A stretch of 29,373 bases of DNA from a virus, in IMG/VR virus record IMGVR_UViG_3300000325_000020, positions 1 to 29,373 of that record; one strand, 5' to 3'. A model generated the notes under the pieces. The model did no database searches. It was given only the letters and a program-made list of their open reading frames with translations, and was not told where the DNA came from. The position numbers and the translations under genes are program-made. Within the stretch, counting starts at the first letter, position 1. Each line of letters starts with the position of its first letter. Positions 44 through 21,567 of the stretch are shown here, one piece after another.

Positions 44-1621
44 TTATTTTATTAACCATGTTAAATTTTCTTTTTCTCCAGCAACTTCCATTTCCCAAGA
101 ATCATTTCTATTATCCATTGGTTGGTAAACTGCTTCGTAATCTAATGTTCTACTTAATACATCTTTCTGTAATGCTATTCCTTCTGATTTTAATCTTAAT
201 GCTGTATCTCTAACCCACATACCTATTGCAAGACTGATTGAAAGATCATCATTATATCCTTCCATTGCCTGTGCCTTAAAATTGTGGTAAATAAATACAA
301 ACAATTCTTCTATCAATCTAGATGAATGAACTATTACAGTTTTTTCTCTAAAATACTCTTCTAATTTTGCTATTACTAATGGTCGTGTTTTCATGGTCAT
401 ACTGAAACCCGGGACCATCTTTTGATCCATATTTCTATATTTATTTGATATTTGACGCTGAACATCCACGTAGTGTAAATCCTTACTCGTATAAAACAAA
501 TTATCATAATCTCTGTCTATAACTTGCTGTATTGCTGCCCAACCTATTGATGCATTTTCAATAACGAGTAACGCGTTGTTATATTCTACTGCAGTATTCA
601 TACATAAATTACCAAAATCTTTTGTGGATATTTTTCCTTTATATTCCGCTACTTGTTCCATTTTCTGTACATCTATTACGTGGAATGCTGAAAAGTCATT
701 ACCATCACCACGGGCAACGTCAGCACTCAATACATAATCTTGTGTGTAATCTGGTGGTCTCCATATCCATAAATTACTATCAAATCCCCTTTTTTCCATT
801 GGTTCTTCAATGTGGGTATTTTTATATTCTTCAAGTATAACACCATCAATTACAGTTTGACCAGATGTGATGAATGAGCAATCACATTCTTGTGCTGCCA
901 TTGAAGGACCTAATAGTTTATCTTGGTCATCTCTCCAATCTTGTTCCCTATCTGGGTGTACTGTCCAATGGAGTTTAATGAAATTCCAATCATTTTTCCC
1001 TTCTTCAGCTCCAGCCCATGTTTTATGAAACCAATTTCCTACTCCATTGGGTGTGCTTAATGCAATACATTGACCACCAGTAGATAAGGTACTTTGTGCC
1101 GCTGTCCATATTGCATCAATTTTTGGAATAAATGAGGCTTCATCGAGTATCAATAATGATAATGCTTCTGATCTACCACTATCTTCACCACTGGAAATTG
1201 CCTTTACTTGTGAACCATTTGAATATTTTAAAGATAATTTATTATCCTCCGTACAACTGGATTTTACCCAATTTGGAAGATTAGCATGCATAACTCGTAT
1301 TTTTGTTACGAGATTTTTTGCTGTATCCTGTTTGGTAGCAATAACCAATATATTCTTGTCTGTTTGAAAGGTCATCATCCATAATGAATAACCAGCTACG
1401 AGAGTGGATATTCCTAACTGACGAGCTTTGAGAATAATATTATAATTGTGCTTATTAAAATCTTCTAATGTTTTTTCTTGGAAATCATATAAGGAAAATG
1501 GAATTTTACCGTCTATTGGATGTTGAATGACAGCATACTTTTTTAGAAAGTATATTGGGTCTTTAGCACACTTTATGTATTCGGCCTTTATTATTTCTTT
1601 TATGTTTTGGCTATTACTCAT
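44..1621 (-). CDS. Terminase large subunit (DNA packaging ATPase/nuclease)
   Basis: This is the motor that packages phage DNA into the prohead. The 525-residue protein has the usual two-domain layout. In the ATPase half, a Walker A variant ARQLGIST (66-73) is of the T4 gp17 type, Walker B LLILDE is at 156-161, and the coupling motif ALSTPNGVGN is near 187-196. The C-terminal RNaseH-like nuclease shows acidic residues at D301 (SADVARGD), E355 (VIENAS) and D458/D459 (YNDDLS). The start directly abuts the stop of the preceding gene, implying translational coupling. Length and motifs are typical of a complete T4-like TerL. Equivalent to T4 gene 17. Confidence 0.95.
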   Translation of the reverse strand: MSNSQNIKEIIKAEYIKCAKDPIYFLKKYAVIQHPIDGKIPFSLYDFQEKTLEDFNKHNYNIILKARQLGISTLVAGYSLWMMTFQTDKNILVIATKQDTAKNLVTKIRVMHANLPNWVKSSCTEDNKLSLKYSNGSQVKAISSGEDSGRSEALSLLILDEASFIPKIDAIWTAAQSTLSTGGQCIALSTPNGVGNWFHKTWAGAEEGKNDWNFIKLHWTVHPDREQDWRDDQDKLLGPSMAAQECDCSFITSGQTVIDGVILEEYKNTHIEEPMEKRGFDSNLWIWRPPDYTQDYVLSADVARGDGNDFSAFHVIDVQKMEQVAEYKGKISTKDFGNLCMNTAVEYNNALLVIENASIGWAAIQQVIDRDYDNLFYTSKDLHYVDVQRQISNKYRNMDQKMVPGFSMTMKTRPLVIAKLEEYFREKTVIVHSSRLIEELFVFIYHNFKAQAMEGYNDDLSISLAIGMWVRDTALRLKSEGIALQKDVLSRTLDYEAVYQPMDNRNDSWEMEVAGEKENLTWLIK

Positions 1622-2297: not shown

Positions 2298-2612
2298 TTA
2301 TTTACTTTTGGAAAATTTCCTTAAAAATTCTGCTGCATCATCTGCGTCATCATTTTCAAAGGCTGTTTCCATTTTCTGGACATCTTTTTTAGTTTTAGTC
2401 AATTTCCGTTTTAATTTTGTTATTTCTTTCTTGTTTTTCTTCTTATTTTTCTGTAAAGTTTTTATTTCTTTTAGTACCACTTCTTCTTTTTTCTTGTTCT
2501 CTTTAATAACCCTCTTCAACTCTTTGGCTTCTTTTGATTTTTTTGCACTCAGTAATGTGCTCAACCCGAAAAGTCCTAAAATCGCAATAATTAACTTCTT
2601 TAACCATTCCAT
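2298..2612 (-). CDS. Membrane-anchored lysine-rich coiled-coil protein
   Basis: The 104 residues begin with one membrane helix (about 5-22, LKKLIIAILGLFGLSTLL). A long highly charged Lys/Glu coiled coil (25-85) and a short acidic stretch follow. The N-in anchor plus coiled coil is the topology of an inner-membrane spanin (Rz-like), though a cytoplasmic scaffold is equally compatible. The start overlaps the previous stop in TAATG, so it is translationally coupled to the small gene upstream. Confidence 0.7.
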   Translation of the reverse strand: MEWLKKLIIAILGLFGLSTLLSAKKSKEAKELKRVIKENKKKEEVVLKEIKTLQKNKKKNKKEITKLKRKLTKTKKDVQKMETAFENDDADDAAEFLRKFSKSK

Positions 2613-2920
2613 TATTCCATCTCCATTATTTTTTTATAAGTAGACTTACCTTCTAACTTCTTAGTTTTTGACGGTTCATCAAATTCACTATCCATTGGTT
2701 CTTTATATTTACCATATCCTTCACTATCACGTTTTATGTCCTCAGTAAAACCTTTGTCGAAAATATTTACAGTTTTAAAAAGTCTAAATTTAAGTGCTGG
2801 GCGATCATTTATCAATAAATCCCCCTTTTCATTCCATTTAATAGATTTAATTACTACTGGCTTATTCTTAAATTTACCCATTTTTACAGTGTCGCCTTTT
2901 TTAATCGGTAATTCAATCAT
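2612..2920 (-). CDS. Small SH3/KOW-like basic protein, intact copy next to a homing endonuclease
   Basis: The 102-residue protein has an N-terminal beta-type segment (IKKGDTVKMGKFKNKPVVIKSI) that looks like a small barrel. A basic, disordered tail follows. Its own ribosome site (AGGAG) lies inside the last codons of the homing endonuclease gene, and the two genes overlap in ATGA. A truncated relative sharing GD-x-x-K-x-GKFKN lies on the other side of the endonuclease (3710-3793). Function is unknown. Confidence 0.75.
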   Translation of the reverse strand: MIELPIKKGDTVKMGKFKNKPVVIKSIKWNEKGDLLINDRPALKFRLFKTVNIFDKGFTEDIKRDSEGYGKYKEPMDSEFDEPSKTKKLEGKSTYKKIMEME

Positions 2921-3708
2921 TTTTTGCTCCTACAATTATTGAAATGATATCGTTTCATATTAGTTACTCCTCCAGTTTTATCACAGTTAGGACAAGTATC
3001 TATTTTTTGTTTATGTATCCGTCCACAATTTTCAAAATGATATCGATGCATCAAATTTATTCCACCAACTACACCACATGATGGGCATTCAACTCTTGAA
3101 AATTTCATACCTGTTCTGCCAATGCTCATATTTCGACATCGTTCTTTAGATAATGGTATGCCCATTAACGCATCACTAATACTTTTACGATGAGATTCTG
3201 TTAATTTTTTTTCAGTAAGACCTTTGCTAATATTATTACAATGTTCTTCAGATTTAGTTACTCCAAACATTGTCTTACTAATATTTTTACGATGTTCATC
3301 AGATAAATTTCTACCCAGCAAGCCTTTACTAATATTCATAGAATGTTCTTTAGAACGAATTCTTCCTTTTAATGATTTGCCTTTTTTCTTATTTGATTCT
3401 TCCGAAAAAATATGATTAAATCCACCAGTAGTCATATTATATCCGGTTCCCTCATCCATAAAAGTATTATATTCTTTAATATAATATGATTCCATTTTAT
3501 TTAACTCATCCATAGAATTACACTCACATATAATACCCCACTTAAAATTTTCTATGCCATATTTACGAAGTGCATTATGAAAATAAAAATTTGAATTTCC
3601 ATTAAATGCGCTCTGGCAATGACCTTTTTTTCTATCTTCCAATGTCTTAATCGTCTGACCAATATAAGATTTATCATTTATTTCATTGTGTGCTCGATAA
3701 ATAATCAT
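2917..3708 (-). CDS. GIY-YIG homing endonuclease with NUMOD3 repeats and zinc fingers
   Basis: A free-standing homing endonuclease that would cut an uninterrupted allele and spread by repair. The GIY-YIG nuclease domain is at 1-96: IYRAHN, SYIGQT (14-19), R26, catalytic Glu in MESYY (about 73) and Asn in YNMTTGG. Several NUMOD3-type DNA-binding repeats follow (SEEHxxNISKG, SDEHRKNISK and similar, about 100-200). At the C-terminus two zinc-finger-like units CPxCG...H...C and CPNC...H...C occur. A GGAG ribosome site precedes the ATG. All key residues are present, so it is probably active. It sits between a stump and a complete copy of one small gene family, which marks the insertion point. Confidence 0.9.
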   Translation of the reverse strand: MIIYRAHNEINDKSYIGQTIKTLEDRKKGHCQSAFNGNSNFYFHNALRKYGIENFKWGIICECNSMDELNKMESYYIKEYNTFMDEGTGYNMTTGGFNHIFSEESNKKKGKSLKGRIRSKEHSMNISKGLLGRNLSDEHRKNISKTMFGVTKSEEHCNNISKGLTEKKLTESHRKSISDALMGIPLSKERCRNMSIGRTGMKFSRVECPSCGVVGGINLMHRYHFENCGRIHKQKIDTCPNCDKTGGVTNMKRYHFNNCRSKK

Positions 3709-3709: not shown

Positions 3710-3793
3710 TTAATTTCTCCAGCTTATCATGAGATTTTTGAACTTCCCCGTTTTGATCACATCTCCCACGGAAACATCTATTGTAATTGCCAT
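3710..3793 (-). pseudogene. 27-residue stump of the SH3/KOW-like gene, cut off by the endonuclease insertion
   Basis: A 27-codon frame starts in a TAATG overlap with the preceding stop, so it occupies a normal gene position. Its residues 10-20 (GDVIKTGKFKN) match the N-terminus of the intact small protein at 2612-2920 (GDTVKMGKFKN). After GKFKN the similarity stops, six unrelated residues follow, then TAA and the endonuclease ATG. Third codon positions differ between the copies, so this is not a recent exact duplication. It is read as the severed 5' end of the ancestral gene. Confidence 0.75.
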
Positions 3794-4473
3794 TATTTTT
3801 TCCCCTTTGGTAATAAATCAACTAATTTATTTCCTTTCCATTCTCTACTATCTACTCTACCACCTATTCTATGGTCTACCCATTTTCCCCATAATTTTTC
3901 ATTTTTAGCAAATATAGACTGACCACCTTTTTGAACTTGTCTATATCCACTTGCACTTCCCATTTCCTTAGAACCCGGTTCTGGTGTTGGATCGATTCCA
4001 CCACTTTTAGTTCCCTCTGGAGGTGTAGTTGGTTTAATCAAAGTTTCCGACGTTGAATGGAAGTTTGAGGTTTCTGGTGGAATTGTATATTCTTGTTTTC
4101 TATGAAATCCGTGGATTCCATACATTCTCTGTTTTGGTGCTAATGGTGGAGTGTCGTCTCGTAATTCATTTGCCATTATTGATGCGTATTCTTCTGGACC
4201 ACTTAAATAACGATATACCATTGCTTTATCTCGTTCTGCCCGTTTTAAATTATTTAGACTTCCGTTACCACCGTAAATATTGTCCGATGCTGGAAAATCA
4301 ATTTGTGTCATACCACGAGTTAAACTTGCAGGTCCCACTACTCGTCTCTCTCCACGTTTAGTGTAAAGACCGTCTGGCCATCCATCTCCAATTTCACCTA
4401 AACCTGTACCATGTCCGCCAGCTGATGACCCTTCATTTATAAGTTTTAACATTTTCGTTTCAAATTTATTCAT
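3793..4473 (-). CDS. Unknown leader-tagged protein, glycine/proline-rich
   Basis: The 226-residue protein begins MNKFETKMLKLINE followed by GSSAGGHGTG. This is a short amphipathic leader ending in I-N-E before Gly, as in the tagged genes further upstream. The rest is rich in Gly, Pro and charged residues and probably largely unstructured, with no membrane segment. The start directly follows the TGA of the gene upstream. It could be a head-packaged or assembly protein; the body is not recognised. Confidence 0.7.
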   Translation of the reverse strand: MNKFETKMLKLINEGSSAGGHGTGLGEIGDGWPDGLYTKRGERRVVGPASLTRGMTQIDFPASDNIYGGNGSLNNLKRAERDKAMVYRYLSGPEEYASIMANELRDDTPPLAPKQRMYGIHGFHRKQEYTIPPETSNFHSTSETLIKPTTPPEGTKSGGIDPTPEPGSKEMGSASGYRQVQKGGQSIFAKNEKLWGKWVDHRIGGRVDSREWKGNKLVDLLPKGKK

Positions 4474-5043
4474 TCAATCTTCCAATAAGTTAGTCTTCCA
4501 CCATTCAGGTGATAAATTCTCTACATGAAGTCGCGGTCTACCTCCACTAAATTTTGGTGATTTCTTTGCGGGGTCTGATGTATTACGTATGTTATCTTCT
4601 ATACGACCTTCAGCGTCAATTCCAGATGCTACAGGTGGACCAGCAAATAATACATTCTTATCATCTACTCCCAACCATTTAATTACACTCCAACCTAAAT
4701 TTTCTATCACATCACGTAATCTGTTTTTATATTTTTTCTTAGCTCCGTATGAAATTGCTGGAACTTCTCTGTAGTCCATAGTATAATCTTCTTCTGGATC
4801 CATTGCACCGTCACTTAAAATATATCCAATTACCTTATATCCTAAATCATTCTGTAATTGCTTAACCCAGTCTTTGGTTTCTTGTTTATATTGATCCAAT
4901 GATTTGTAAAATGTTCCTGGACCGTCATCTACTGGTGCTTTTCTGGTACCTGCACCTTCTTTTATGATAGAAATTATATCATTTTCTACTATAAAATCTC
5001 CTATTTTATCACCACTAAACTCATTTAAAATCTTTTTATGCAA
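4474..5043 (-). CDS. Unknown protein with short ILNE leader, TTG start
   Basis: 189 residues beginning MHKKILNE. The start is a TTG, supported by GGAG seven bases upstream, and no in-frame ATG lies nearby. The middle (about 45-135) alternates helices and strands with YKVIGYILSDGAMDPEEDY and looks like a folded domain of unknown type. The ILNE leader fits the (I/L)-x-E pattern of the block. No catalytic motif was recognised. Confidence 0.7.
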   Translation of the reverse strand: MHKKILNEFSGDKIGDFIVENDIISIIKEGAGTRKAPVDDGPGTFYKSLDQYKQETKDWVKQLQNDLGYKVIGYILSDGAMDPEEDYTMDYREVPAISYGAKKKYKNRLRDVIENLGWSVIKWLGVDDKNVLFAGPPVASGIDAEGRIEDNIRNTSDPAKKSPKFSGGRPRLHVENLSPEWWKTNLLED

Positions 5044-5652: not shown

Positions 5653-6687
5653 TTACCTCAAATGTTTGTTTACTATTTTAACTGCCTCTAAAGCATGTTT
5701 TCGTGTTTGCTTTATCATTTCAAATGACTCTGGCGTTTCTGCTTTCTTAAATTTTGAATTCGATAATTGTTTCTTTGTTTGTTTTGCGTAATTACTTCTA
5801 ACATTCTTTATGAATTCCTTTGAGTTTTTCATATTACTCAATCCACCTTTACCAAGAACTCCATTTTGTTCTAATGTCTTTGCCATTCCTATAATTCCAA
5901 TACAGAAACTTTTTATGGATACATTTTCGGTATCTATTCCCTTATACTTAATAAGTAGTGGGTCAATCTTTATTTCTTTAATATTTATTTTTGGGTCGTT
6001 TAGTTTAACTAAAAAACGAGTTGCGTGATACATAAACTTACCAATATCTGTTGAAATTAACTTAAACTCTATTCCTTTTCTATTTCTTGACGTAACTAAA
6101 ATGTTATTCTTGAATCTTCCCAAAACCCCCTCTGTTCCAAATGACATTGTTACTGTATTTCCAAGAGCACTATATAAATTTCCAATAGTAAACCCCTTTA
6201 ATCCATATTGTGGCTTATATCTTCCACTCATCCAGTCTGTATATGGTTTGAATGTCAATATCAAATCAACTTGACTATAAACTTCCTCTCCCAAATTGAA
6301 AATTACTGAATTTCCTTTGGTGTGTAATGTATCAGTAATCTCTACGTTTTTTGGAGCCTTTGTTTTTACATAAGTAAGAAAAGTTTCAAGATATTTTCGT
6401 CTTATTGCATTTTCCTTCTTTCTAAAATCTTTTTGGTCTATAACTGAAATTGGTATTTCTACCAACATATCAATATCACCATATATTTTATCAACTTTAT
6501 GTTTCAAATCATGCTTATAGTAACTTGTAGATCCAACTGGAGTTAATTTACCAAGTGGTTGTAGTCCACTCGTTTTCAAAAAAACATTAAAATTTTTAAC
6601 AAACCTCTCAAACTCTTTTACTGACGCCTTCACTATCATTGGAGTTAATTTAGTTTTCTGGGTTTTTACTGTTTCCCATCCGCCCAT
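5653..6687 (-). CDS. DNA polymerase beta-type nucleotidyltransferase-fold protein
   Basis: The 344-residue protein carries the signature of the pol-beta/CCA/poly(A) nucleotidyltransferase fold. A Gly-Ser turn VGSTS (51-55) is followed by GDIDMLVEI (D71 and D73), and a third acidic residue sits in a later strand, SQVDLILTF (D141). All three carboxylates needed for two-metal catalysis are visible. The remainder is helical and lysine-rich. A second protein of the same fold follows directly (6691-7587). Substrate is unknown; tRNA or another RNA end, or a small molecule, are all possible. No leader tag is obvious. Confidence 0.75.
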   Translation of the reverse strand: MGGWETVKTQKTKLTPMIVKASVKEFERFVKNFNVFLKTSGLQPLGKLTPVGSTSYYKHDLKHKVDKIYGDIDMLVEIPISVIDQKDFRKKENAIRRKYLETFLTYVKTKAPKNVEITDTLHTKGNSVIFNLGEEVYSQVDLILTFKPYTDWMSGRYKPQYGLKGFTIGNLYSALGNTVTMSFGTEGVLGRFKNNILVTSRNRKGIEFKLISTDIGKFMYHATRFLVKLNDPKINIKEIKIDPLLIKYKGIDTENVSIKSFCIGIIGMAKTLEQNGVLGKGGLSNMKNSKEFIKNVRSNYAKQTKKQLSNSKFKKAETPESFEMIKQTRKHALEAVKIVNKHLR

Positions 6688-6690: not shown

Positions 6691-7587
6691 TTATAACTCC
6701 TTTGGAATTGGGAATTTATATCTTGTTAGTGTAGTTTTGTATGCATCAAATATTTTCCTATTCAACTTTTTAAATAAAAAGTCCTTTGACTTCATCAACT
6801 TATATAATTTTTCAAATGAATCAATATCTTTAAACGTGCGTTTTGATCCGAATAAAAATTTTGCTAACTTATCCATATCCCCAATTACTTTTCTTATTTT
6901 TAGTTTAACTCGTTTTCCCTTTTCGTTTGTGGTAAAATCAACTAACTCTACACCATTTTTCCAATTCATTTGAAATTTTCTCTTAACGTCAGGATCTTTT
7001 GTTTTTAATATCGTTTGAGAAAAAATATCTGCAATTAATAAATTACGATATACTGCTTTGTATTTACTTCTATAATCTGATGCAGAAAGTGCTTTTTTCA
7101 TGAATTCTAAATCACCAATCATAACATCAATCTGAACATATCCAGGATCACCTAAATCATTTCCATCTTTATCTACAGCGTTTAGTTGAGTACCACTTTT
7201 ATCTACAAGTGGGGTGATGAAGTGAGCCTGTTTTAATCCCTTATTAATTTTATGATCCTTAATTTTAGTTCTACCTAAAAACTTATCTAACTCTCCCCAA
7301 AATTCAGTTGCTTCACCGTTAAACTTCATAATTTTAGCCATGACTGATACATCTACTGCAATATCAATATCCCCTAAAAATGGTTTTTTATAGTTTCCTA
7401 TGATTGTGTATTTTAATTTTTTTAGACCAGCATCTACGAGAGATTTTTTGATTGTAGCATCCAGATGTTCACTTGGGACTACTGAATTTACATCACTAAA
7501 AACATTACCACCTTCAAGTAATAAACGTTTAAAATGTCTCTTTATTTCTTCTCGTATTAATTTTCTTACACTATTTTCCGTTATCAT
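6691..7587 (-). CDS. Second pol-beta-type nucleotidyltransferase-fold protein, leader-tagged
   Basis: The start is the ATG at 7587, with GGGAG seven bases upstream; a TTG three bases earlier is less likely. The N-terminus MITENSVRKLIREEIKRHF continues to LLLE before GG, matching the long leader family of this block. The body shows the nucleotidyltransferase signature: IIGN, then LGDIDIAVDV (D73, D75) and a third carboxylate in VQIDVMIGD (D154). It diverges strongly from the preceding enzyme, so the two probably act on different substrates or as a pair. The leader suggests cleavage to a mature form. Confidence 0.75.
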   Translation of the reverse strand: MITENSVRKLIREEIKRHFKRLLLEGGNVFSDVNSVVPSEHLDATIKKSLVDAGLKKLKYTIIGNYKKPFLGDIDIAVDVSVMAKIMKFNGEATEFWGELDKFLGRTKIKDHKINKGLKQAHFITPLVDKSGTQLNAVDKDGNDLGDPGYVQIDVMIGDLEFMKKALSASDYRSKYKAVYRNLLIADIFSQTILKTKDPDVKRKFQMNWKNGVELVDFTTNEKGKRVKLKIRKVIGDMDKLAKFLFGSKRTFKDIDSFEKLYKLMKSKDFLFKKLNRKIFDAYKTTLTRYKFPIPKEL

Positions 7588-7598
7588 CAATTCTCTCC

Positions 7599-9302
7599 CT
7601 AATCTACATTACGGTCTAAATACATTTGAGATACAACTTCTGGAGTATTTTTCTTTAATAAGTTTTTCATATTCTTAATTCTATTAATTGTCAATATTAT
7701 ACTTTTTCGTGTATCTTCACGTTTCTTTGGAATGGTTACTAATTCATCACCATCACTTTTAAATTCAGCGGCTATTGATTTAACACTTGCTTCAAGTTTA
7801 ACCAAATAACCTTCAAGTCCAGTTGGGTCTACCTTAATGCGTTTAACCAACTCTTTTTCTGCGTTCTGTAAATCATTCATGTATTTCCAATTGCGTTCTT
7901 TACGAGCAGTAAACTGATTTTTATCTACTATCTTGACCACATTTCCATCAGGAACATATAATACAAGTCCTTCATCTTCTTCACCAAATGCACGTTGAAA
8001 ATCTACTTTCAATACTTTACCTTTCATCTTTTTACCAATCAAATTTGCTATTCTCTGTATTTGATATTTGATTTTTTTATGGTGTGGTTTTCTTGCTGGG
8101 GTATTTAATAAATTTCCATATTTTTCAATCATCTTACTTAACAAAATTTCATAACTTTCTTCAAAATGAACTTGTTTTAAATTTACTTTTGGATTTGAAA
8201 AGAATTTAATGGTAGTTTTCTTATTTGCTTCTTTAGCAAATACATCGTGAAATGCTATTGGAGTTTCTACACCATCAACTATTATTTTAAATAATACTAC
8301 TATACCATCACCAATTTTTTCTGGATCATATAATACTATATTGTAATCCCATGATGGTATTGCCTCACATTCAATAGATATGTTTTTAGTATTACCTTCA
8401 ATGCCAAATTTCTTTGCATATTTATCTACTATTTTCTTATATGGAATTTTCTTTAATAATTTATGATACTTTACGAAATCTTCATAAAAATATAATGAAG
8501 GATAATCTTTTTCGTGTTTAACAGTTTTAGTTTTTGATCCTGAATAAAACCCTCCACCCCTTATTCCAAATTGGAAAAAGTGACCATCTACCTTTTCATT
8601 AACTTCAAATTTTGTATTGTCGGCATTCCACAGTTTTAAGAAGTTTAATAAATCCTTTGGTTTCATATCCTCTATATGTTTAATACCTTCTGTTAAAACT
8701 CCCTCTGTGATACCAAATTTCGTCTTAAAGATACCATATACGGACTTATTAACTTTACCGTATAGAGTTTTAAATGCATCCTTTGGATTATCACCTTTGA
8801 ATGCATTTCTAACAACAGTTCCACTAATAGTTTTTCCATCAATTTTCATTTGAAGTTGTGGGACAGTAATTACATATCCTTTTGTTTCAAAACTTTCCAT
8901 ATCTTTACCTGTATATGGGTTATAATACTTTCCACTTAATCTACCAGCATCCTTTTCACCGAGACCAACTACCAACGCAGTAGTTTTCTCATCAAACTTA
9001 GACTTTATCTCTACAGTATTATATGGATTTTTAACTTGAATGATGTTAGATTTTGGAACTTTAAACATTTTAGATATTATAGCTTCTTTTTCCTTAAAAT
9101 CAAATGGTGATTTACCATCAGTTTTATTTGAAGTTCCTATAAATACATTTTTCTTACCGAATTTTTTAACTAAGAATTCGTATGCGTGATGATGTCCTTT
9201 ATGATATGGTTGGAATCTACCGGAGTATACTGCTATGGTTTTTTTTATTTCACCAGTATCTTCCAATAATTCTTGTATTAACTGTGTTGCTAATTTACTC
9301 AT
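7599..9302 (-). CDS. Fusion of NMN-adenylyltransferase-like domain and KxDG nucleic-acid ligase-like domain
   Basis: The N-terminal half (about 20-195) is a HxGH-type nucleotidyltransferase: GRFQPYHKGHHH (28-39) and the ISGTVVR motif (159-165), as in NadM/NadR-type enzymes that make NAD from NMN and ATP. The second half resembles covalent nucleotidyltransferase ligases: KVDG (237-240, lysine for AMP attachment), FYSGSKTK, ECE (311-313), EDEGLVLY (442-449) and VVKIVDK (455-461), motifs I to V. The linker contains ITE-G (198-201) and LTE-G (203-206), which fit prohead-protease sites. The N-terminus MSKLATQLIQELLE also looks like a leader. The ligase half recalls a domain common in T4-like marine phages. 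RNA rather than DNA as substrate is inference. Confidence 0.8.
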   Translation of the reverse strand: MSKLATQLIQELLEDTGEIKKTIAVYSGRFQPYHKGHHHAYEFLVKKFGKKNVFIGTSNKTDGKSPFDFKEKEAIISKMFKVPKSNIIQVKNPYNTVEIKSKFDEKTTALVVGLGEKDAGRLSGKYYNPYTGKDMESFETKGYVITVPQLQMKIDGKTISGTVVRNAFKGDNPKDAFKTLYGKVNKSVYGIFKTKFGITEGVLTEGIKHIEDMKPKDLLNFLKLWNADNTKFEVNEKVDGHFFQFGIRGGGFYSGSKTKTVKHEKDYPSLYFYEDFVKYHKLLKKIPYKKIVDKYAKKFGIEGNTKNISIECEAIPSWDYNIVLYDPEKIGDGIVVLFKIIVDGVETPIAFHDVFAKEANKKTTIKFFSNPKVNLKQVHFEESYEILLSKMIEKYGNLLNTPARKPHHKKIKYQIQRIANLIGKKMKGKVLKVDFQRAFGEEDEGLVLYVPDGNVVKIVDKNQFTARKERNWKYMNDLQNAEKELVKRIKVDPTGLEGYLVKLEASVKSIAAEFKSDGDELVTIPKKREDTRKSIILTINRIKNMKNLLKKNTPEVVSQMYLDRNVD

Positions 9303-9451
9303 CTTCGTCCACCTTTATCAAAGTCCTTTGAAAACTTCTGTAATTTACCAAATGCTCTAAACTTTTTCATTTTCTCTTGTTTACTCCATTTCATTTTATC
9401 AAATACTTTCATTCTCTCCGTTAGTGGAAGTAGTGATGACAATTTAATCAT
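9299..9451 (-). CDS. Small basic leader-tagged protein (50 aa)
   Basis: A 50-codon gene fills the gap between the HAD phosphatase and the fusion ligase. It overlaps the former by 8 bases and the latter in ATGA. It reads MIKLSSLLPLTE followed by a Lys/Arg-rich helix (MKVFDKMKWSKQEKMKKFRAF). Leader plus short basic body resembles T4 internal head proteins, which bind packaged DNA. Function is inferred from this architecture only. Confidence 0.7.
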   Translation of the reverse strand: MIKLSSLLPLTERMKVFDKMKWSKQEKMKKFRAFGKLQKFSKDFDKGGRR

Positions 9452-9968
9452 ATTTTACCAACTGTGACTTCATTTTTATATGTGGATATTTCCGTTTTAA
9501 TTTCTTTACTGCATTTACATTTTTATTGGAATCATCGAAAAATGCTATATCATCGTATCCTTTTTTGATTTGGCCTTCTACCCAATCCGCTTTCTTTTGT
9601 GGATTTGCATCTGCAAGTGCTACTACAAATACATCTCCGTGGCCACTATCCTTAAAAAATTGTCTGACTGGTTTATATTTTGATCTGGCTGTAAGTATAG
9701 TTAGACGACGATTTCCAACTGCACTATGTATTCTCTTAAATACCTTAAACATACTTTTTATTTTTTTAGGGTCTATTACTTTATCAAATTCTGAAAAATC
9801 TATTTCATCACCTGGTTCTGGTTTATATACTGCGTATAGTCCTGGTGTCATTGTTATTTTCTTTCCATTACGCATTAAATAAACTTTAGAATTAGATTTT
9901 ACTAGTGTATCATCAAAATCAAATACTCGGAGTTTTTTTTCTATTAATAAATCTTTAAGTTTTATCAC
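9444..9968 (-). CDS. HAD-family phosphatase, leader-tagged (polynucleotide 3'-phosphatase-like)
   Basis: The 174-residue enzyme starts at a GTG and begins MIKLKDLLIE. A complete HAD core follows: motif I DFDDT (17-21), motif II LTAR (92-95, Thr), motif III lysine in PQKKADW, and motif IV FFDDS (143-147). Small HAD phosphatases of this size in T4-like phages resemble the 3'-phosphatase half of polynucleotide kinase. With the adjacent ligase-like protein, an RNA or DNA end-healing role is plausible. No kinase P-loop is present. Other phosphate-ester substrates cannot be excluded. Confidence 0.85.
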   Translation of the reverse strand: MIKLKDLLIEKKLRVFDFDDTLVKSNSKVYLMRNGKKITMTPGLYAVYKPEPGDEIDFSEFDKVIDPKKIKSMFKVFKRIHSAVGNRRLTILTARSKYKPVRQFFKDSGHGDVFVVALADANPQKKADWVEGQIKKGYDDIAFFDDSNKNVNAVKKLKRKYPHIKMKSQLVKYD

Positions 9969-10059
9969 TACCTAATTCCATCACATAATATAGTATTACA
10001 AACACCACCGCACTCAATAATAAAAAATCAAATTTTGCTACTATGAAATCACTAAACAT
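9955..10059 (-). CDS. 34-residue single-helix membrane protein
   Basis: The frame starts in a TAATG overlap with the previous stop and ends inside the HAD gene start, a typical coupled position. It reads MFSDFIVAKF and then one hydrophobic helix (FLLLSAVVFVILYYVM) and a short polar tail. Function is unknown. The tight overlaps on both sides make it a credible gene despite its size. Confidence 0.6.
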   Translation of the reverse strand: MFSDFIVAKFDFLLLSAVVFVILYYVMELGSDKT

Positions 10060-10331
10060 TACTTATCTAGCTTCCAACGTTTATCTGCTATTTTCTTCAT
10101 ACTTTTAAGAATAGTTTCTAATGCAACTACACTCTGATAATTATGTTTCCAATTTGGTTTAACAAAATCTTTATTTGTCCTGTTGGCCGTATTAAATATT
10201 TTATTAGCATGACCAAGAACTGTTTTAGCATATATTCTAAATTTTTTAGTTAGTTCTTCCCTTCCACTTTCACTAATAATCTCTCTAATCTTTTTTCGTA
10301 ATACTCGTTCTTGTAATTCATCTTTTGCCAT
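10059..10331 (-). CDS. Small helical protein with long leader-type N-terminus
   Basis: The frame extends upstream to a TTG at 10421, but the supported start is an ATG at 10331: GGGAG lies just upstream of three consecutive ATGs, at best distance for the third. The 90-residue product begins MAKDELQERVLRKKIREIISE, resembling the long leader family (amphipathic, ending I-S-E before Ser). The remainder is a basic helical body (about 25-90). No known domain was recognised. Confidence 0.65.
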   Translation of the reverse strand: MAKDELQERVLRKKIREIISESGREELTKKFRIYAKTVLGHANKIFNTANRTNKDFVKPNWKHNYQSVVALETILKSMKKIADKRWKLDK

Positions 10332-10405
10332 CATCATCTCCCGTTTAGATATTTTAACTTTTTGTTTTCCGATTTCTCTCGGTTTGTCTATGTGAAATTG
10401 TGCTA

Positions 10406-10642
10406 TTATTTTATATCCCAAGTTTTAATAGATTTTAAAACATAAGTAAGCGTTCCAACCTCATAATTAAATGCCTTTGCTAATTTATCATTTTTAAGAT
10501 GTAAAATCATTGAGTATTTCTTAAATGTTTCTATTGAAGATTTAAGTGTTTTTACTATAGCCATTTTATTTCCAGCACCTGCATATTCATTCAAAAGTTC
10601 TTCTCTGATGAGTTCTCTTAGTTGTGTTTTAGTTATTTTCAT
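10406..10642 (-). CDS. Leader-tagged small helical protein (MKITKTQL family)
   Basis: 78 residues. The N-terminus MKITKTQLRELIREELLNE is nearly identical to those at 10925 and 12186, whereas the bodies are unrelated. After the leader there is YAGAGNK and then two amphipathic helices. A GGAGAAATAAA ribosome cassette precedes the ATG. The conserved N-terminus on different bodies indicates a targeting tag rather than a shared fold. Confidence 0.75.
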   Translation of the reverse strand: MKITKTQLRELIREELLNEYAGAGNKMAIVKTLKSSIETFKKYSMILHLKNDKLAKAFNYEVGTLTYVLKSIKTWDIK

Positions 10643-10664
10643 TTTATTTCTCCATTAAAGTGTA

Positions 10665-10925
10665 TCACTCAAATTTCATTGGTTCTTGTGCCACTTTGTC
10701 TGCAAGTGTACCTATACCAAAACTGACCTGGGATAAAAGTTCAAGCCAAGAATCCAAATTTTCCTTTCCTTTTATTGAAGATTTTACCTCTTTGATAGCC
10801 TTACCCAACATCTTTTCATAAACCAGTAAATGTTTTAATAATTCCTTTTTCCTCGTTGGGTCATCCCACCCCTCATTTAACTCTTCCCGAATCATTTCTT
10901 TTAATTGTGTTTTAGTTATTTTCAT
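10665..10925 (-). CDS. Leader-tagged small helical protein (MKITKTQL family)
   Basis: An upstream TTG would extend the frame to 10940, but GGAGG eight bases before the ATG at 10925 fixes the start at MKITKTQLKEMIREELNE. The body (about 68 residues) is helical with a WLELLSQVSFGIGTLADKVA stretch. It shares only the leader with its neighbours. The ribosome site lies within the last codons of the gene upstream. Confidence 0.75.
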   Translation of the reverse strand: MKITKTQLKEMIREELNEGWDDPTRKKELLKHLLVYEKMLGKAIKEVKSSIKGKENLDSWLELLSQVSFGIGTLADKVAQEPMKFE

Positions 10926-10929
10926 TCTA

Positions 10930-11211
10930 CTATCCTCCAAACCTACTGTTTTTCCACATCAACTTCTGCAATCTTTCATACTCACGTTGTTGTTCTGGTG
11001 ATATTTTAATTGTTTTCAATGGCCCAAATATTCTTTGTTTTCTACTGTTTTGTTTATAAACATCATCCATCTTCTTTTCATCTTTATCTACTGCAATTAC
11101 TTTTTTAAGGTTGCTACTTACCACTATCCAATATCCAGCCTTTCTCATTTCTTGTGCCTTGTCAATAGTAATGTCTACTTTTTCGTTTAGTAAATCTATT
11201 AGTTTAATCAT
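10930..11211 (-). CDS. Leader-tagged small basic protein (MIKLxDLL family)
   Basis: 93 residues beginning MIKLIDLLNE, the short leader family. The body has one compact strand/helix unit (AGYWIVVSSNLKKVIAVDKDE) and a basic C-terminus rich in Arg and Lys. The start overlaps the stop of the ADP-ribosyltransferase gene in ATGA. Small basic tagged proteins are what T4 internal proteins look like, but the fold is not recognised. Confidence 0.7.
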   Translation of the reverse strand: MIKLIDLLNEKVDITIDKAQEMRKAGYWIVVSSNLKKVIAVDKDEKKMDDVYKQNSRKQRIFGPLKTIKISPEQQREYERLQKLMWKNSRFGG

Positions 11212-11765
11212 TTTATACCCATCAACTCTAATTCTTTTTCCCAGAATAATCCGTATACGGCTAATGCATTGACTTTAACTAACACATTCATTGTGTTTCC
11301 AACGTGAAATACTTCTTGTTCATTTCTTTTTAATCCAACTTCTTTTCCAATCTTACCTAACCACTTATAATTACCAACAAAATTATTATCTATTTTAGTA
11401 ATAATAATTGATTCTGGATAATCGGGCTTAGCATTATATTTAGCAAACTTTTGAGCTAAATCAAAATTATATGTAAATGATTGTACTGGTCGTCTTGACC
11501 TATACTTCATTTTTAAAAACAACCATTTGTCATCTCGTTTAGCTATTTTTAGTTTTTTTAAATCTTTTTTAGATATAGCCGTTCCTCTATACACTTCACC
11601 ACTAATCGGGTTTAATTCTTTTGAGTATTTAGATTTTTTTGAATACAAAGATTTAATAGTAGAATCTATTTTAGTAGTTCTTTCACCGCCAGCTTTCATA
11701 TACTTTTTTAACATTTCTATTTCAGTATCTAAGTTTTCTGTCAATAAATCTTTTAGCTTTATCAT
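11208..11765 (-). CDS. Leader-tagged mono-ADP-ribosyltransferase (Alt-like)
   Basis: The 185-residue protein begins MIKLKDLLTE. It then shows the three catalytic landmarks of the R-S-E class of NAD-dependent ADP-ribosyltransferases in the right order: EVYRGTA (R60), VQSFTYNFDLAQKFA (S96, T98) and NEQEVFHVG (E149, E151). T4 Alt, which is packaged in the head, injected and modifies host RNA polymerase, has the same NExEV context and is also processed after an N-terminal L-I-T-E. This protein is much shorter and is essentially the catalytic domain. The target is unknown; modification of a host protein or nucleic acid right after infection is inference. It lies near an NAD-synthesis-type domain. 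Confidence 0.75.
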   Translation of the reverse strand: MIKLKDLLTENLDTEIEMLKKYMKAGGERTTKIDSTIKSLYSKKSKYSKELNPISGEVYRGTAISKKDLKKLKIAKRDDKWLFLKMKYRSRRPVQSFTYNFDLAQKFAKYNAKPDYPESIIITKIDNNFVGNYKWLGKIGKEVGLKRNEQEVFHVGNTMNVLVKVNALAVYGLFWEKELELMGIK

Positions 11766-11808
11766 AATATTTCTCCTAATAATAAAAAGCTATGTTTAGT
11801 TTCAGTTC

Positions 11809-12186
11809 TTACAATATGTACGTACTTTTGACTTTATAGTTAATTTTCTTTTTACCATCTTCATCTATATACTCTATGTCAAAATCAAAGCTAGGAACTG
11901 ACCCAAAATAATAAAATCTCACATCTACAATTTTACCCTTAGTAGCAGGAATTTTTTTCGTTTTCCCATGAGCAGTAACAACCTTATACCTATCATAGGT
12001 TACATTACTTCCTTTGAGTTTATTAATCGCAGACTTTATTAACTTATCCTCAGTAGTATCTCTAGCCTTTTCAGCACCATCTGCTATACCATTTCCAAGA
12101 GCATTAATTTGCTTTGAAGATACCGTGCCTTCATTCAATATTTCCTCTCTAATCATTTCTCTTAATTGTGTTTTAGTTATTTTCAT
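11809..12186 (-). CDS. Leader-tagged small protein (MKITKTQL family)
   Basis: 125 residues with N-terminus MKITKTQLREMIREEILNE followed by GTVSS. A helical linker follows, and from about residue 60 a beta-rich domain with alternating Val/Tyr/Phe (VDVRFYYFGSVPSFDFDIEY), reminiscent of small secreted or internal protein folds. The ribosome site is AGGA. It is the first gene of the tagged series in the direction of transcription. Confidence 0.7.
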   Translation of the reverse strand: MKITKTQLREMIREEILNEGTVSSKQINALGNGIADGAEKARDTTEDKLIKSAINKLKGSNVTYDRYKVVTAHGKTKKIPATKGKIVDVRFYYFGSVPSFDFDIEYIDEDGKKKINYKVKSTYIL

Positions 12187-14822: not shown

Positions 14823-15470
14823 TTAAAATAATCTTTCTTGTGTAGTATGTTTTTCGATTCTTTCTTCTGCAATGTTGAAATATGTTTCATCAATCTCAAT
14901 ACCTATAAAATCTCTATTAGTTTGTTTACAAGCAACTCCTGTTGAACCTGAACCCATAAAAGGGTCTAAAATAATTTGTGTTTCATCTGTATTATTTTTT
15001 ACAAATATTTCAAGCATATCCACATTTTTTTCAGTAGGGTGTAATAATTTACTACTTGAAATTTTAGGAAATTCCATAACATCGGACAATCTTTTTTCTC
15101 TAAACAAACTTCTTCCTTTATGTGCATAAATTATAAATTCGTGTTTCGGTGCGTATGATGCCTTTAAATCTCCAGAGCCATGATTATTTTTAACCCAGAC
15201 AATAATATTTTTTATTTTGAAATATTTTTCAATAGATTGTTTAAATTTATCAACATTATGCCAACTACAAAAAATATATAAAGATGAATTATTATTAAGA
15301 ATTTTATCTGATTTTATTAAAAAATCTTCAAGCCAAATTAAATTTGAATCATTTTTTATTTTATCAAATTTTTCTTTCACAACTCTTCTATTACTTTGAA
15401 AAGACATTCCATAAGGTGGGTCTGTAATTATAGCATCGACCTTAATCCCATCTTCAATCATTCTATCCAT
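14823..15470 (-). CDS. DNA methyltransferase (DPPY class), start codon lost
   Basis: Transfers a methyl group from SAM to adenine N6 or cytosine N4 in DNA. Catalytic DPPYG at 17-21; the SAM-binding DPFMGSGSTGVA lies after it, giving the beta-class order. The ATG at 15470 has no ribosome site. The natural 5' end lies 11 codons upstream at 15503, where the leader GGAGAAATAAA is followed by ACG in place of ATG. The frame there reads KLYNEDCLIA, matching the N-terminus of the next methyltransferase. Either ACG is used weakly or the gene gives a shortened product. The C-terminus TQERLF fits the QxxLF clamp-binding pattern. Confidence 0.85.
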   Translation of the reverse strand: MDRMIEDGIKVDAIITDPPYGMSFQSNRRVVKEKFDKIKNDSNLIWLEDFLIKSDKILNNNSSLYIFCSWHNVDKFKQSIEKYFKIKNIIVWVKNNHGSGDLKASYAPKHEFIIYAHKGRSLFREKRLSDVMEFPKISSSKLLHPTEKNVDMLEIFVKNNTDETQIILDPFMGSGSTGVACKQTNRDFIGIEIDETYFNIAEERIEKHTTQERLF

Positions 15471-15483
15471 TGCTATTAAGCAA

Positions 15484-15535
15484 TCTTCATTATAGAGTTT
15501 CGTTTTATTTCTCCTTAAAATAATCTTTGTTGTGT
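15484..15535 (-). repeat. Methyltransferase junction repeat, copy 1
   Basis: A 52-base segment covering the end of one methyltransferase gene, the ribosome site and the first codons of the next. It is identical to 16260-16311 except for a single base, which lies in the start codon (C here, T in the other copy on the coding strand). Similar but shorter versions occur at 14815-14840 and 17350-17385. Confidence 0.85.
15501..15503 (-). other. ACG in place of ATG start codon
   Basis: On the minus strand an intact AAGGAGAAATAAA ribosome cassette is followed by ACG AAA CTC TAT AAT GAA GAT TGC. The sister gene at 16279 has ATG in the same context. This is the only mismatch in the 52-base repeat shared with 16260-16311. 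Confidence 0.85.
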
Positions 15536-16279
15536 TTCTTTTATTCTTTTCTCTGCTATATCACAATACTCACTACTCATCTCACTACCTATCCAATTTC
15601 TATTATTTAAAATAGCCATCTTTGCTGTTGTTCCACTTCCCATAAAAGGGTCGTAAACAATATCATTTTCATTACTCCAACTTATTATGTGGTCATTCGC
15701 TAATTGTTCTGGGAATTGAGCAACGTGATTAGCTGTATTATAACCGCCAGTGTTATACTTCCAAACATTACCTTTCTGTTTTTTATCTTTGGTTTTTAAA
15801 GATGTTTGTGTTTCTCTTAATCCTATACCAATTTCATTAGTTTTCCTGCTTCTTTTTATTGTTTTGCCAGCGTGAATACAATCAATCATTAAAGGATTAA
15901 AAGACTTTGGTTTTTCTTTACTGAAAACGAACATATATTCAAACTCTTGCTCATATCTTTTATGTGTTAGTGGTATAAAATTTGCTTTTTGGTAAATCAT
16001 AGTGTCATTCAGCCTAAATCCACATTCTTTTAAAAATAATGCTTGTTTAAAAGATGTTCCTGTCTCACTTCCTTTTATTGTTGCATCTCCAACAATCCAA
16101 ACTACTACACCGCCTTCTTTAGTTACTCTATACAATTCTTTAGCTATGCTTTCAAAATCAAAACTATAACCATTGTACGTCCTTAAATTGTCATAAGGTG
16201 GAGATGTTACTGTTAAGTCAATAAAGTTATCTTCCATTCTTGCCATTGTATCAAGGCAGTCTTCATTATAGAGTTTCAT
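15515..16279 (-). CDS. DNA methyltransferase, SPPY class
   Basis: 254 residues starting MKLYNEDCLD at an ATG with a full AAGGAG site. The catalytic motif TSPPYDN (25-31) is the form usual for cytosine-N4 methyltransferases. The SAM motif DPFMGSGTTAKMA is near the C-terminus. It probably methylates a specific short site to escape host restriction or to mark phage DNA; no restriction nuclease is nearby. Ends in TQQRLF. Target sequence cannot be read from the protein. Confidence 0.9.
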   Translation of the reverse strand: MKLYNEDCLDTMARMEDNFIDLTVTSPPYDNLRTYNGYSFDFESIAKELYRVTKEGGVVVWIVGDATIKGSETGTSFKQALFLKECGFRLNDTMIYQKANFIPLTHKRYEQEFEYMFVFSKEKPKSFNPLMIDCIHAGKTIKRSRKTNEIGIGLRETQTSLKTKDKKQKGNVWKYNTGGYNTANHVAQFPEQLANDHIISWSNENDIVYDPFMGSGTTAKMAILNNRNWIGSEMSSEYCDIAEKRIKETQQRLF

Positions 16280-16311
16280 TTTATTTCTCCTTAAAATAAT
16301 CTTTGTTGTGT
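16260..16311 (-). repeat. Methyltransferase junction repeat, copy 2
   Basis: This is the second copy of the 52-base stop/ribosome-site/start junction found at 15484-15535. On the minus strand it encodes the end TQQRLF of the upstream enzyme, TAA overlapping AAGGAG, and the first codons of the next enzyme. The tandem arrangement would allow recombination between gene boundaries. Confidence 0.85.
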
Positions 16312-17244
16312 AGTATGTTTTTCAATTCGCTTTTTAGCTATCTCAAAATAATCTTTGTCTATTTCAATCCCTATAAAGTCTCTATTCAAGTTTTTACAAG
16401 CTACTCCTGTTGTTCCACTTCCCATTGTTAAATCAACTACTGAATCATTTTCATTGCTAAAAGTCTTCATCAAATCTTCAAGCAACAATACAGGCTTTTG
16501 CGTTGGATGGTAACCGTCATAATCCTTTTTGTATTTTAAAATATTTGATTTGTATTTTTTACCTTCCCATAGGTTAAAGGTGCTTGCGAACCTTTTAAAA
16601 CAATTAAAATGTATTTCCTTTAACTCTTGGTATTCCCTATTAAAAAAACCAGTTACTTCTCTTAATTTTAAATAATGTTTTTCAGGTATCATTGATGGTT
16701 GCAATGAACTACACCAATGGTAAGCGGCTCCACCGTGTCCTTTTGTATTTAATCCACAAACACCACACATTTCATCAAGTGTTAGTTTTGCTTTTTTACG
16801 TTCTATATTTAAGTATTCTCTATAACTATCATCTTCACCATAAGTTCCGTGAGAGCCTTTGCTAAAAACTAAAACATCTTCATAATAATTTAAAGGTGCT
16901 TTTTTAGCTGTTAAAGCATTTGCAAAATGGTCTTTCTCCCATATCATACTATAATTAAATGGTAAGTTTGGCAGTGCTTTATTTATTAATTCATTTGTAA
17001 ATGGTTGCTGTGCTGTTAATATCATTTTGCCGTTTTTTCTTAAAATACGATTTGCGATTTCCATTATTTTATTAATATCAATAACACTATCCCATTCAGT
17101 TTTCCCTTTCATTCCATGATTTATGCTTTCACTATTTCCTAACCCTTTAACAGTTCCATAAGGTAAATCAGTCAATATTAAATCAACACTTCCATCTTTT
17201 ATATGCTTGTGTTGTTCTAAACAGTCACCTTTATAGAGTTTCAT
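16291..17244 (-). CDS. DNA adenine methyltransferase-like protein (DLPY motif)
   Basis: 317 residues. The catalytic tetrapeptide is DLPY (26-29) in LTDLPYGTVKGLGNS, and the SAM motif is LTMGSGTTGVA near the C-terminus. Compared with its paralogue at 17367-18299, the first 40 and last 100 residues are closely similar, but the middle (about 125-230) differs. That middle region carries a possible metal site (CGVCG...H) and probably forms the target-recognition domain. Ends in TQQRLF. It probably methylates adenine, by the motif type. Confidence 0.85.
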   Translation of the reverse strand: MKLYKGDCLEQHKHIKDGSVDLILTDLPYGTVKGLGNSESINHGMKGKTEWDSVIDINKIMEIANRILRKNGKMILTAQQPFTNELINKALPNLPFNYSMIWEKDHFANALTAKKAPLNYYEDVLVFSKGSHGTYGEDDSYREYLNIERKKAKLTLDEMCGVCGLNTKGHGGAAYHWCSSLQPSMIPEKHYLKLREVTGFFNREYQELKEIHFNCFKRFASTFNLWEGKKYKSNILKYKKDYDGYHPTQKPVLLLEDLMKTFSNENDSVVDLTMGSGTTGVACKNLNRDFIGIEIDKDYFEIAKKRIEKHTTQQRLF

Positions 17245-17259
17245 TTTATTTCTCCTTTG

Positions 17260-17355
17260 TTAAATTGTTCCGTAAACAATACTAACAACAATTATTACCG
17301 TGATTGCTATTAATCCAAAAACAAATACTATATTATCATCAAGTTCAATCTTCAT
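17260..17355 (-). CDS. 31-residue single-helix membrane protein
   Basis: The frame lies between two methyltransferases with its own AAGGAAAAATAAA site and ATG at 17355. It reads MKIELDDNIVFVFGLIAIT and then IIVVSIVYGTI: a short acidic N-terminus and one membrane helix. Unknown function. Its position with a regular leader supports translation. Confidence 0.6.
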   Translation of the reverse strand: MKIELDDNIVFVFGLIAITVIIVVSIVYGTI

Positions 17356-17366
17356 TTTATTTTTCC

Positions 17367-18299
17367 TTAAAATAATCTTTCTTGTTTAGTATGTTTTTCA
17401 ATTCTTTCTTCTGCAATTTTAAAATAGTTTTCATCTAATTCAATACCTATAAAATCACGATTTGTATTCATACAAGCAACTCCTGTACTTCCACTACCCA
17501 TTGTTAAATCAACTACTAAATCGTTTTCATTACTAAATGTCTTAATCAAATCTTCAAGCAACAATACAGGCTTTTGCGTTGGATGGTAACCGTCATAATC
17601 CTTTTTGTATTTTAGTATATTGCTTTTGTATTTGTTGCCTTCCCATAAGTTAAATGTACTTGTATGTCTTTCATTTATCTTTTCAAGCTCACTGTAATTT
17701 AAAAATCCATCCATATTATTAATTCGGTATTCTGTAATTAAAGCTAAGTATGTTTCTTTTTTGCAAAGTTCAAATTGTGAGCTTTTTATTCTAAAAACGT
17801 GGTCAGCTCTTTGTCCTATTGCCTCAATTACATTTTTCTTTTTAAGTCCAATAAAAGAAAGCACGTTACCAAAATACGTTCTAAGTGGGTGCAAGTTTTC
17901 AACATCATACTTTTTGCTAAAAACTAAAACATCTTCAATATAACTTACAGGTGCTTTATTTGACACTAAACAATTTGCAAAGTGCATTTTATCCCAGTAC
18001 ATATTATAGCTATGAGGTAAGTTAGGAATAGCTTTTGATATTAATTCAGTTGTAAAAGGTTGGTTAGCTGTTAAAATCATCTTGCCATTTTTTCTTAATA
18101 TCCTATTGGCTATCTGCATGACTTGATCGGTATCAATAGTAATATCCCACTCAGAAACATTATATTTTTTTTCTTTTGCTACCCTGCTATTACCCAACCC
18201 TTTAACCGTTCCATAAGGCAAGTCCGTAAGCACCAAATCTACACTTCCATCTTTTATATGCTTGTGTTGTTCTAAACAGTCACCTTTATAGAGTTTCAT
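17367..18299 (-). CDS. DNA adenine methyltransferase-like protein (DLPY motif), paralogue
   Basis: An ATG at 18332 could extend the frame, but the AAGGAAAAATAAA site fixes the start at 18299 (MKLYKGDCLE). The 310-residue enzyme has LTDLPYGTVKGLGNS and LTMGSGSTGVA, nearly the same N- and C-terminal parts as the neighbour. It has a different central target-recognition segment. Conserved flanks with a swapped middle suggest duplication followed by a change of specificity. Ends in KQERLF. Confidence 0.85.
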   Translation of the reverse strand: MKLYKGDCLEQHKHIKDGSVDLVLTDLPYGTVKGLGNSRVAKEKKYNVSEWDITIDTDQVMQIANRILRKNGKMILTANQPFTTELISKAIPNLPHSYNMYWDKMHFANCLVSNKAPVSYIEDVLVFSKKYDVENLHPLRTYFGNVLSFIGLKKKNVIEAIGQRADHVFRIKSSQFELCKKETYLALITEYRINNMDGFLNYSELEKINERHTSTFNLWEGNKYKSNILKYKKDYDGYHPTQKPVLLLEDLIKTFSNENDLVVDLTMGSGSTGVACMNTNRDFIGIELDENYFKIAEERIEKHTKQERLF

Positions 18300-18300
18300 T

Positions 18301-18486
18301 TTATTTTTCCTTAAATGTTTTAAGTTTTCCATTTTGAGCTGAATACCATTTGTTCATATACCTAAATTCAAATCCTTTATCTCTCATACAAATAGCAATT
18401 TCTTCACCATGTTTAGTTTTTAAAACAACTCCGTTATAAATCTCTTGCAGGATTATTGTGCCTTTTTTGTCTGTTGTTACTTTCAT
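18301..18486 (-). CDS. Small unknown beta-type protein
   Basis: The frame is open from 18525, but GGAGAAATAAA fixes the start at the ATG at 18486 (MKVTTDKKGTIILQE). The 61-residue product looks beta-rich, with YNGVVLKTKHGEEIAICM and an aromatic tail FRYMNKWYS. The start overlaps the zinc-ribbon micro-gene in ATGA. Function unknown. Confidence 0.6.
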   Translation of the reverse strand: MKVTTDKKGTIILQEIYNGVVLKTKHGEEIAICMRDKGFEFRYMNKWYSAQNGKLKTFKEK

Positions 18487-21552: not shown

Positions 21553-21567
21553 TATAATAAATATCAT

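Follow-up and report, generated by a model that had tools for sequence, protein, structure and literature searches.

The gene at positions 7599..9302 of a marine T4-like phage raises the question of why a domain of the nicotinamide mononucleotide adenylyltransferase (NMNAT) type and a ligase-like half should be encoded as one chain, joined by a linker with candidate sites for a capsid (prohead) protease. The gene lies in IMG/VR virus record IMGVR_UViG_3300000325_000020, and the whole stretch of 29,373 nucleotides that was analysed is termed the window. The answer preferred here, with a probability of roughly 0.6, is that the gene encodes a head-packaged precursor that would be targeted by its leader, cut into two enzymes by a gp21-type protease and injected as a kit. 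Stop codons are found throughout the plus strand at 7599..9302 and the coding strand is the minus strand (9302..7599). The fusion gene is located in the late region, between the gene for the large terminase subunit (44-1621) and a block of small open reading frames (ORFs), and shows the following features:

7599..9302, minus strand: NMNAT-type plus ligase-like fusion (P0001), 567 amino acids, ATG start
9261..9302, minus strand: N-terminal leader MSKLATQLIQELLE, 14 amino acids, ending LLE|D and resembling a capsid-targeting sequence
8724..9236, minus strand: NMNAT/cytidylyltransferase-like domain, residues 23-193, with HxGH and ISGTVVR intact
8685..8711, minus strand: joint ITE200|GVLTE205|G, tandem sites of the prohead-protease type
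7602..8687, minus strand: ligase-like half, residues 206-567, with the K237 codon at 8592-8594 and a helical tail at the C-terminus

The motifs and the pair of linker sites named in a preliminary description of this DNA were all recovered in the protein, with GRFQPYHKGHHH at residues 28-39 and ISGTVVR at 159-165 in the N-terminal part, and KVDG at 237-240, ECE at 311-313, EDEG at 442-445 and VVKIVDK at 455-461 in the C-terminal part. The pattern [LIV]xE[GAS] occurs only as ITE200|G and LTE205|G, both exactly at the joint; when any residue was allowed to follow, [LI]xE was found only at 11 and 14 (leader), 116, 200 and 205. Composition-preserving shuffles of the window protein gave p=0.0013 for a second [LI]xEG at most 8 residues away and p=5e-5 for two [LI]xEG in residues 190-215. 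Both joint sites are kept in an 82%-identical relative as ITE|G and LSE|G, the second site having changed only T to S while L, E and G are unchanged. Relatives also carry [LI]xE at residues 10-17.

The motif [LIV]xE[GAS] was counted in 47 non-redundant fused proteins and compared with shuffles. It was enriched outside the two domains (135 observed versus 56.6±7.2 shuffled) and depleted inside them (20 versus 53.3±7.1), and no such contrast was seen for control motifs in which E was replaced by K or Q or the spacing was shifted. A site at the start of the ligase was present in 35 of the 47 proteins, with 6.1 expected. Its usual form is L-x-E|GG, and a second copy frequently stands 4-5 residues away, as it does in the window. 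Many of the joints follow a recurring linker element, [FL][ST]x[ED]WWK...LxE.

T4 gp21 cleaves after L/I-x-E, and a 10-residue leader is enough to direct IPIII into the T4 head (PMC9026906). Of 20 records with the gene family, 15 encode a protease of the gp21 family (PF03420), among them two contigs that hold the window gene at 100% identity (E=1.3e-27 and 9.3e-28). Microcystis phage Mel-JY01, the sole isolate found with the fusion, also encodes a gp21-like protease and a T4-like capsid protein; its capsid propeptide ends GLLE|GI and its NMNAT-ligase joint reads IIAE|GG. The earlier proposal that the linker sites are of the prohead-protease type gained strong comparative support, together with a PF03420 protease in the window's own phage.

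Relatives of each domain type were found in >500 uncultured viral contigs, with fusions in either order and of 557-1700 amino acids (84 NMNAT+ligase, 33 ligase+NMNAT, plus 12 window-type copies). By comparison, the canonical ligase of these fusions was present in only 3 of 50,697 phage records, Mel-JY01 being the one isolate. The window protein has two unrelated enzymatic domains, and at least three stand in one polypeptide in contigs L130, L154 and L032. Several ORFs of the window are themselves modules or end at module borders:

4474..5043, minus strand: DDGP-domain ORF ending LSPEWWKTNLLED-stop, i.e. at the joint of a sister-phage polyprotein
6691..7590, minus strand: nucleotidyltransferase-like ORF (GDIDIA...IDVMIG) with a leader ending LLE26|GGNVF
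2612..2920, minus strand: small ORF (GDTVKMGKFKNKPVVIKSI), a module within polyproteins L123, L161, L064, L096 and L112

The sister phage (L130/L134) encodes an NMNAT-ligase polyprotein of 1104 amino acids, residues 1-190 of which are homologous to ORF 4474-5043 (E=5e-111). This homologue is followed by FSPEWWKQNLVE|G, an exonuclease (RNase_T, E=8.5e-6), SIEE|G, the NMNAT domain, FSPEWWKKEMLLE|GG and the ligase. Homologues of ORF 6691-7590 are internal, between NMNAT and ligase in L061 (KE|GGN) and after the ligase in L032 (ME|GGN). In the window's phage (L001) the P-loop kinase is a separate gene with the leader MIKLKDLIQLNE|GVNDPGIF, and its homologues are internal modules behind VTE|GVNDPGIF in L154 and INE|GVNDPGIF in L115. 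The ligase itself is a stand-alone gene in LR756500, with the leader MKFLKSYEEFLNENLILE|GG, and in L172 a Nudix domain shares one chain with the NMNAT-type domain. These fused and unfused pairs indicate that the motif accompanies the domain border at gene starts and internal joints alike. None of the polyproteins scanned showed a match to a peptidase domain.

Some further features of these genes were noted. In L032:5965-9564, C-terminal repeats of the form NPETxxxILVKTALKYPxxHPAHK recur between polyprotein modules. A second polyprotein of the window's phage, of at least 824 amino acids, lies on the reverse strand of L190 (~8028-10502), just past the prohead protease gene, and consists of about eight short modules with repeated ESVNE|G/A joints between them. 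The P-loop kinase gene of L001 (1068-2459) carries an intein inside GGPG^SGKT (Intein_splicing PF14890, E=1.2e-8 and 8.5e-4), the middle of which is split over three frames and includes a small zinc-ribbon-like ORF; it is possibly a split intein or a decayed homing element.

The N-terminal domain matched Pfam PF01467 (CTP_transf_like) over residues 25-113 with E=1.6e-6 and 28.8 bits, above the cut-off of 21. It also matched phrog_3041 (E=3e-13) and PDB 2qjt, a NadM-type NMNAT/Nudix protein (E=4e-5), and its best named matches in PDB and NCBIfam are NMN adenylyltransferases. GRFQPxHxGH (residues 28-37) and ISxTxxR (159-165) are both present in the window copy.

The C-terminal half shows motifs I, III, IV and V of covalent nucleotidyltransferases in order (KVDG 237, ECE 311, EG 444 and VVK 455). 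The canonical family of this half (HPFED/KxDG), in which EKxDG and EG are invariant, shares a chain with the same NMNAT domain in Mel-JY01, LR756508 and >100 retrieved contig proteins. AlphaFold2 modelled a canonical relative with a mean predicted local distance difference test (pLDDT) score of 91, its first 13 residues, which hold the cut site, being disordered. The 25 best PDB structure matches of this model were all RNA or DNA ligases, headed by a fungal tRNA ligase (E=3.5e-3) and then archaeal RNA ligases, T4 Rnl1 and T4 Rnl2; their template modelling scores were low, probably because of large helical insertions in the canonical family. The model strongly supports a ligase fold for this family, and PDB sequence-profile searches with the canonical ligase gave no significant match. 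The idea that EGG, where the ligase starts, simply belongs to the ligase fold was rejected, the residues being disordered in the canonical model; [LI]xE|G also precedes unrelated domains and ends unrelated leaders.

A second family, with KWDG, is fused to NMNAT in L083 (461-823) and corresponds to Pfam DUF6267 (PF19782, E=9e-36). Comparison by hhalign showed that it is related to the canonical family (P=3.3e-6), and the window half aligned with the canonical family at P=0.0037 and with the DUF6267 type at P=0.0053. Both alignments keep the register through the joint, HxED, KxDG and the strands after KxDG. Against the canonical family the window half outscored all 86 unrelated control ORFs; against the DUF6267 type its two-sequence profile beat 86 of 86 and the single sequence 85 of 86. 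A separate short alignment paired motifs IV-V, EGLVLYVPDGNVVKIVDKNQFTAR with EGYVISDPSG-PIKLVNRGGFTAA, at P=0.0098. The profile comparison required a 42-row canonical and a 46-row DUF6267-type alignment, and nothing was found from shallow alignments. A tblastn search with the window ligase half against the 50,697 phage records returned nothing but chance matches, in antisense, to genes of Pbunavirus, and neither the DNA pattern of EKVDGHFF nor a scan of genome contigs yielded additional window-type ligases. DUF6267 (phrog_455) shows KWDG...EGYV...VKLV motifs and was seen in 84 phage records, mostly of marine cyanophages. This Pfam family without assigned function is, judged by these motifs and by its profile relation to the ligase family, probably a covalent nucleotidyltransferase.

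On the head-precursor reading, the protein would be made late and its leader would direct co-assembly with the prohead core. The gp21-type prohead protease of the phage would cut after LLE14 in the leader and after ITE200 and/or LTE205. The predicted products in the capsid are an NMNAT-type adenylyltransferase and a KxDG covalent nucleotidyltransferase of the RNA-ligase type, both of which would be kept in the mature head and then injected with the DNA; the pointers to such delivery are the leaders and the gene position. The likeliest use of such a kit would be the mending of RNA ends, whether of host or phage, that defence nucleases have cut, plus restoration of nicotinamide adenine dinucleotide (NAD). 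The longer versions in hundreds of uncultured relatives suggest multi-enzyme precursors that are packed in heads and cut there. The window protein would be a small member of this large marine-phage family of head polyproteins, in which LxE|G joints string together NMNAT, ligase, P-loop kinase, Nudix, exonuclease and nucleotidyltransferase domains. For the wider picture we see even odds, namely that a large and almost uncultured group of T4-like marine phages packs polyproteins into proheads, has them cut in trans at LxE|G by the capsid protease and injects RNA-repair and NAD enzymes, with modules moving freely between fused genes and single genes with leaders.

Several results weigh against the head-precursor reading and are taken here with the alternatives that they favour. 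No virion proteomics for these phages was found in the literature searched, and the stretch between NMNAT and ligase lacks [LIV]xE[GAS] in 10 of the 47 families, several of which have the ligase first and its site on the other side. The fusion might never be split and act as a bifunctional cytoplasmic NMNAT-ligase, with LxE|G as a flexible linker that stays uncut or is cut incidentally; there is precedent for NMNAT being fused to other NAD or RNA enzymes (NadM-type NMNAT/Nudix, PDB 2qjt). This is considered unlikely in view of the motif-specific enrichment at joints and depletion inside domains, and of the identical motif closing the leaders of unrelated genes. A separate window gene, moreover, stops exactly where the sister-phage polyprotein has a site, and a gp21-type protease is encoded in the same phage.

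Other doubts concern the enzymes themselves. The N-terminal domain could be a diverged adenylyl-/cytidylyltransferase fold with another role in nucleotide transfer, or a nucleotide-binding module of RNA repair, that makes no NAD, which would be compatible with packaging and cleavage. It matched NCBIfam PRK01153 with E=6e-7, but with 29.2 bits against a curated equivalog cut-off of 127, so that 'NMNAT-type' is the limit of what sequence allows. Among 101 distinct relatives, moreover, 40 have HxGH and 55 have GxHH, a consistent swap that may have altered the chemistry. Nicotinamide phosphoribosyltransferase (NAMPT), the partner enzyme, turned up in just 2 of the 18 records that have the gene family, most of which are fragments, and is absent from the complete record of Mel-JY01. 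Since the window copy keeps HxGH and ISxTxxR, since all of its best named matches are NMNATs and since two records, both large, carry NAMPT, this alternative is regarded as doubtful. The NMNAT-type domain of the preliminary description was borne out by Pfam and by the nearest named matches, though far below equivalog scores. Quite improbable is the view that the C-terminal half of the window protein is not a ligase and that KVDG, ECE and EG are chance or relic. This half had no match in Pfam, PHROG, NCBIfam or PDB searches, and its own AlphaFold2 model reached pLDDT 43 on a 2-sequence alignment, the Foldseek list from that model being meaningless; its enzyme identity therefore rests on motifs and weak profile scores. 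These motifs nevertheless stand in ligase order, the alignments to two mutually related families are in register and above all or nearly all controls, and the half takes the position of the canonical ligase in the architecture. The ligase-type C-terminal half proposed earlier was accordingly upheld by fold for the canonical family and more weakly for the window copy, whose ligase identity is likely but unproven.

Returning to the head-packaged precursor, its setting was examined in the neighbouring genes:

44..1621, minus strand: terminase large subunit (Pfam PF03237, E=3e-14; phrog_2, E=1e-50)
3793..4473, minus strand: ORF with leader MNKFETKMLKLINE|G
5653..6687, minus strand: second polymerase-beta-like nucleotidyltransferase ORF (GSTSYYKHDL...GDIDML), recognised at motif level only
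9444..9968, minus strand: HAD-type phosphatase of the polynucleotide-kinase-phosphatase type (phrog_415, E=1.9e-8), leader MIKLKDLLIE
10406..12186, minus strand: small-ORF block (10406-10642, 10665-10940, 10930-11211, 11208-11765 and 11809-12186)

The terminase places the gene block in the late head region. In the small-ORF block, unrelated bodies stand under the common leaders MKITKTQLREMIREEL.NE or MIKLKDLLxE. Of the 19 ORFs on the window's terminase side, 7 have an early [LI]xE[GASDN] (2.4 expected), against 1 of 34 on the other side (2.9 expected). ORF 5653-6687 had no match in PDB, Pfam or NCBIfam. Across the relatives, the modules comprise P-loop kinase, HAD phosphatase, KxDG ligase, nucleotidyltransferase-like ORFs, Nudix and exonuclease. 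RNA-end repair plus nucleotide and NAD handling would fit this set, and we tentatively prefer this role over NAD supply for an ADP-ribosyltransferase. The latter, suggested in the preliminary description, found no support, as no library or PDB search gave an ADP-ribosyltransferase match for ORF 11208-11765 and NAMPT is rare in the records examined, which are mostly fragments. The window neighbours appear to resemble RNA-end repair at least as much as a link between NAD and ADP-ribosyltransferase.

Precedents exist in T4 leaders, phiKZ-like head processing and polyvalent proteins, and T4 Pnkp and Rnl are ordinary cytoplasmic enzymes. Unlike in T4 RNA repair, the enzymes described here appear as modules of candidate head precursors, with leaders and protease joints. 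T4-type RNA repair (Pnkp, Rnl1, Rnl2) and the RlaP nucleotidyltransferases (PMC7824862) have in common with the present family the KxDG ligase fold in relatives and the P-loop kinase, HAD phosphatase and nucleotidyltransferase-like neighbours or modules. The T4 internal head proteins and Alt, which gp21 cleaves, share short N-terminal leaders ending L/I-x-E, a phage that itself encodes a gp21-family (Peptidase_S77) protease, a gene position in the head/terminase region and an entry into the host that is predicted for the present family (PMC9026906). In contrast to these T4 capsid-targeting-sequence proteins, the motif of the window family also parts enzyme domains of one chain, so that a cut would free several enzymes and not just a propeptide. 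Polyvalent proteins (Iyer et al. 2017, PMC5512222) are likewise large multidomain phage proteins with diverse enzymes, predicted to be virion-borne, and overlap in domains such as ParB and polymerase-beta-type nucleotidyltransferases. Their proposed release is by embedded metallopeptidases, which are frequent though not universal, whereas the candidate protease acts here in trans; nicotinamide enzymes were not mentioned in the searched text of PMC5512222. NadM-type NMNAT/Nudix proteins and phage NAD salvage have the NMNAT-type domain in common, and in L172 the Nudix domain too, but here the partner is of the ligase type and the NMNAT match is partial. DUF6267 shares its motifs and the NMNAT fusion of L083; it is mostly stand-alone in cultured cyanophages, and the window half is just weakly similar to it.

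No description of a trans-acting capsid protease whose motif separates enzyme modules was found in the part of the literature searched. If the head-precursor reading is true, the T4-like capsid protease would be a processing enzyme of true multi-enzyme polyproteins, beyond propeptide removal, and such cutting would be the phage equivalent of viral polyprotein processing. The LxE|G joints would list injected proteins in hundreds of uncultured marine viruses, and RNA-repair and NAD enzymes would be delivered at infection time zero, ahead of host anticodon nucleases or NADases. DUF6267 and the HPFED/KxDG family would become testable ligases, and in Mel-JY01, which is cultured, the central claim is directly testable.

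Elsewhere in the window, four adjoining DNA-methyltransferase-like ORFs with DPPY/SPPY/DLPY motifs, two of them close paralogues, were observed at 14823-18332. Homing-endonuclease-like ORFs of the GIY-YIG and HNH/Vsr-like types lie between other genes at 2917-3708 and 20522-21586, as well as at 486-1277 of the reverse complement of L190. A peptide deformylase-like ORF (GIGLAAPQ, EGCLSYP, QHEISHLNG) was found at 21568-22206, and a full-length GroEL is encoded at 27484-29115.
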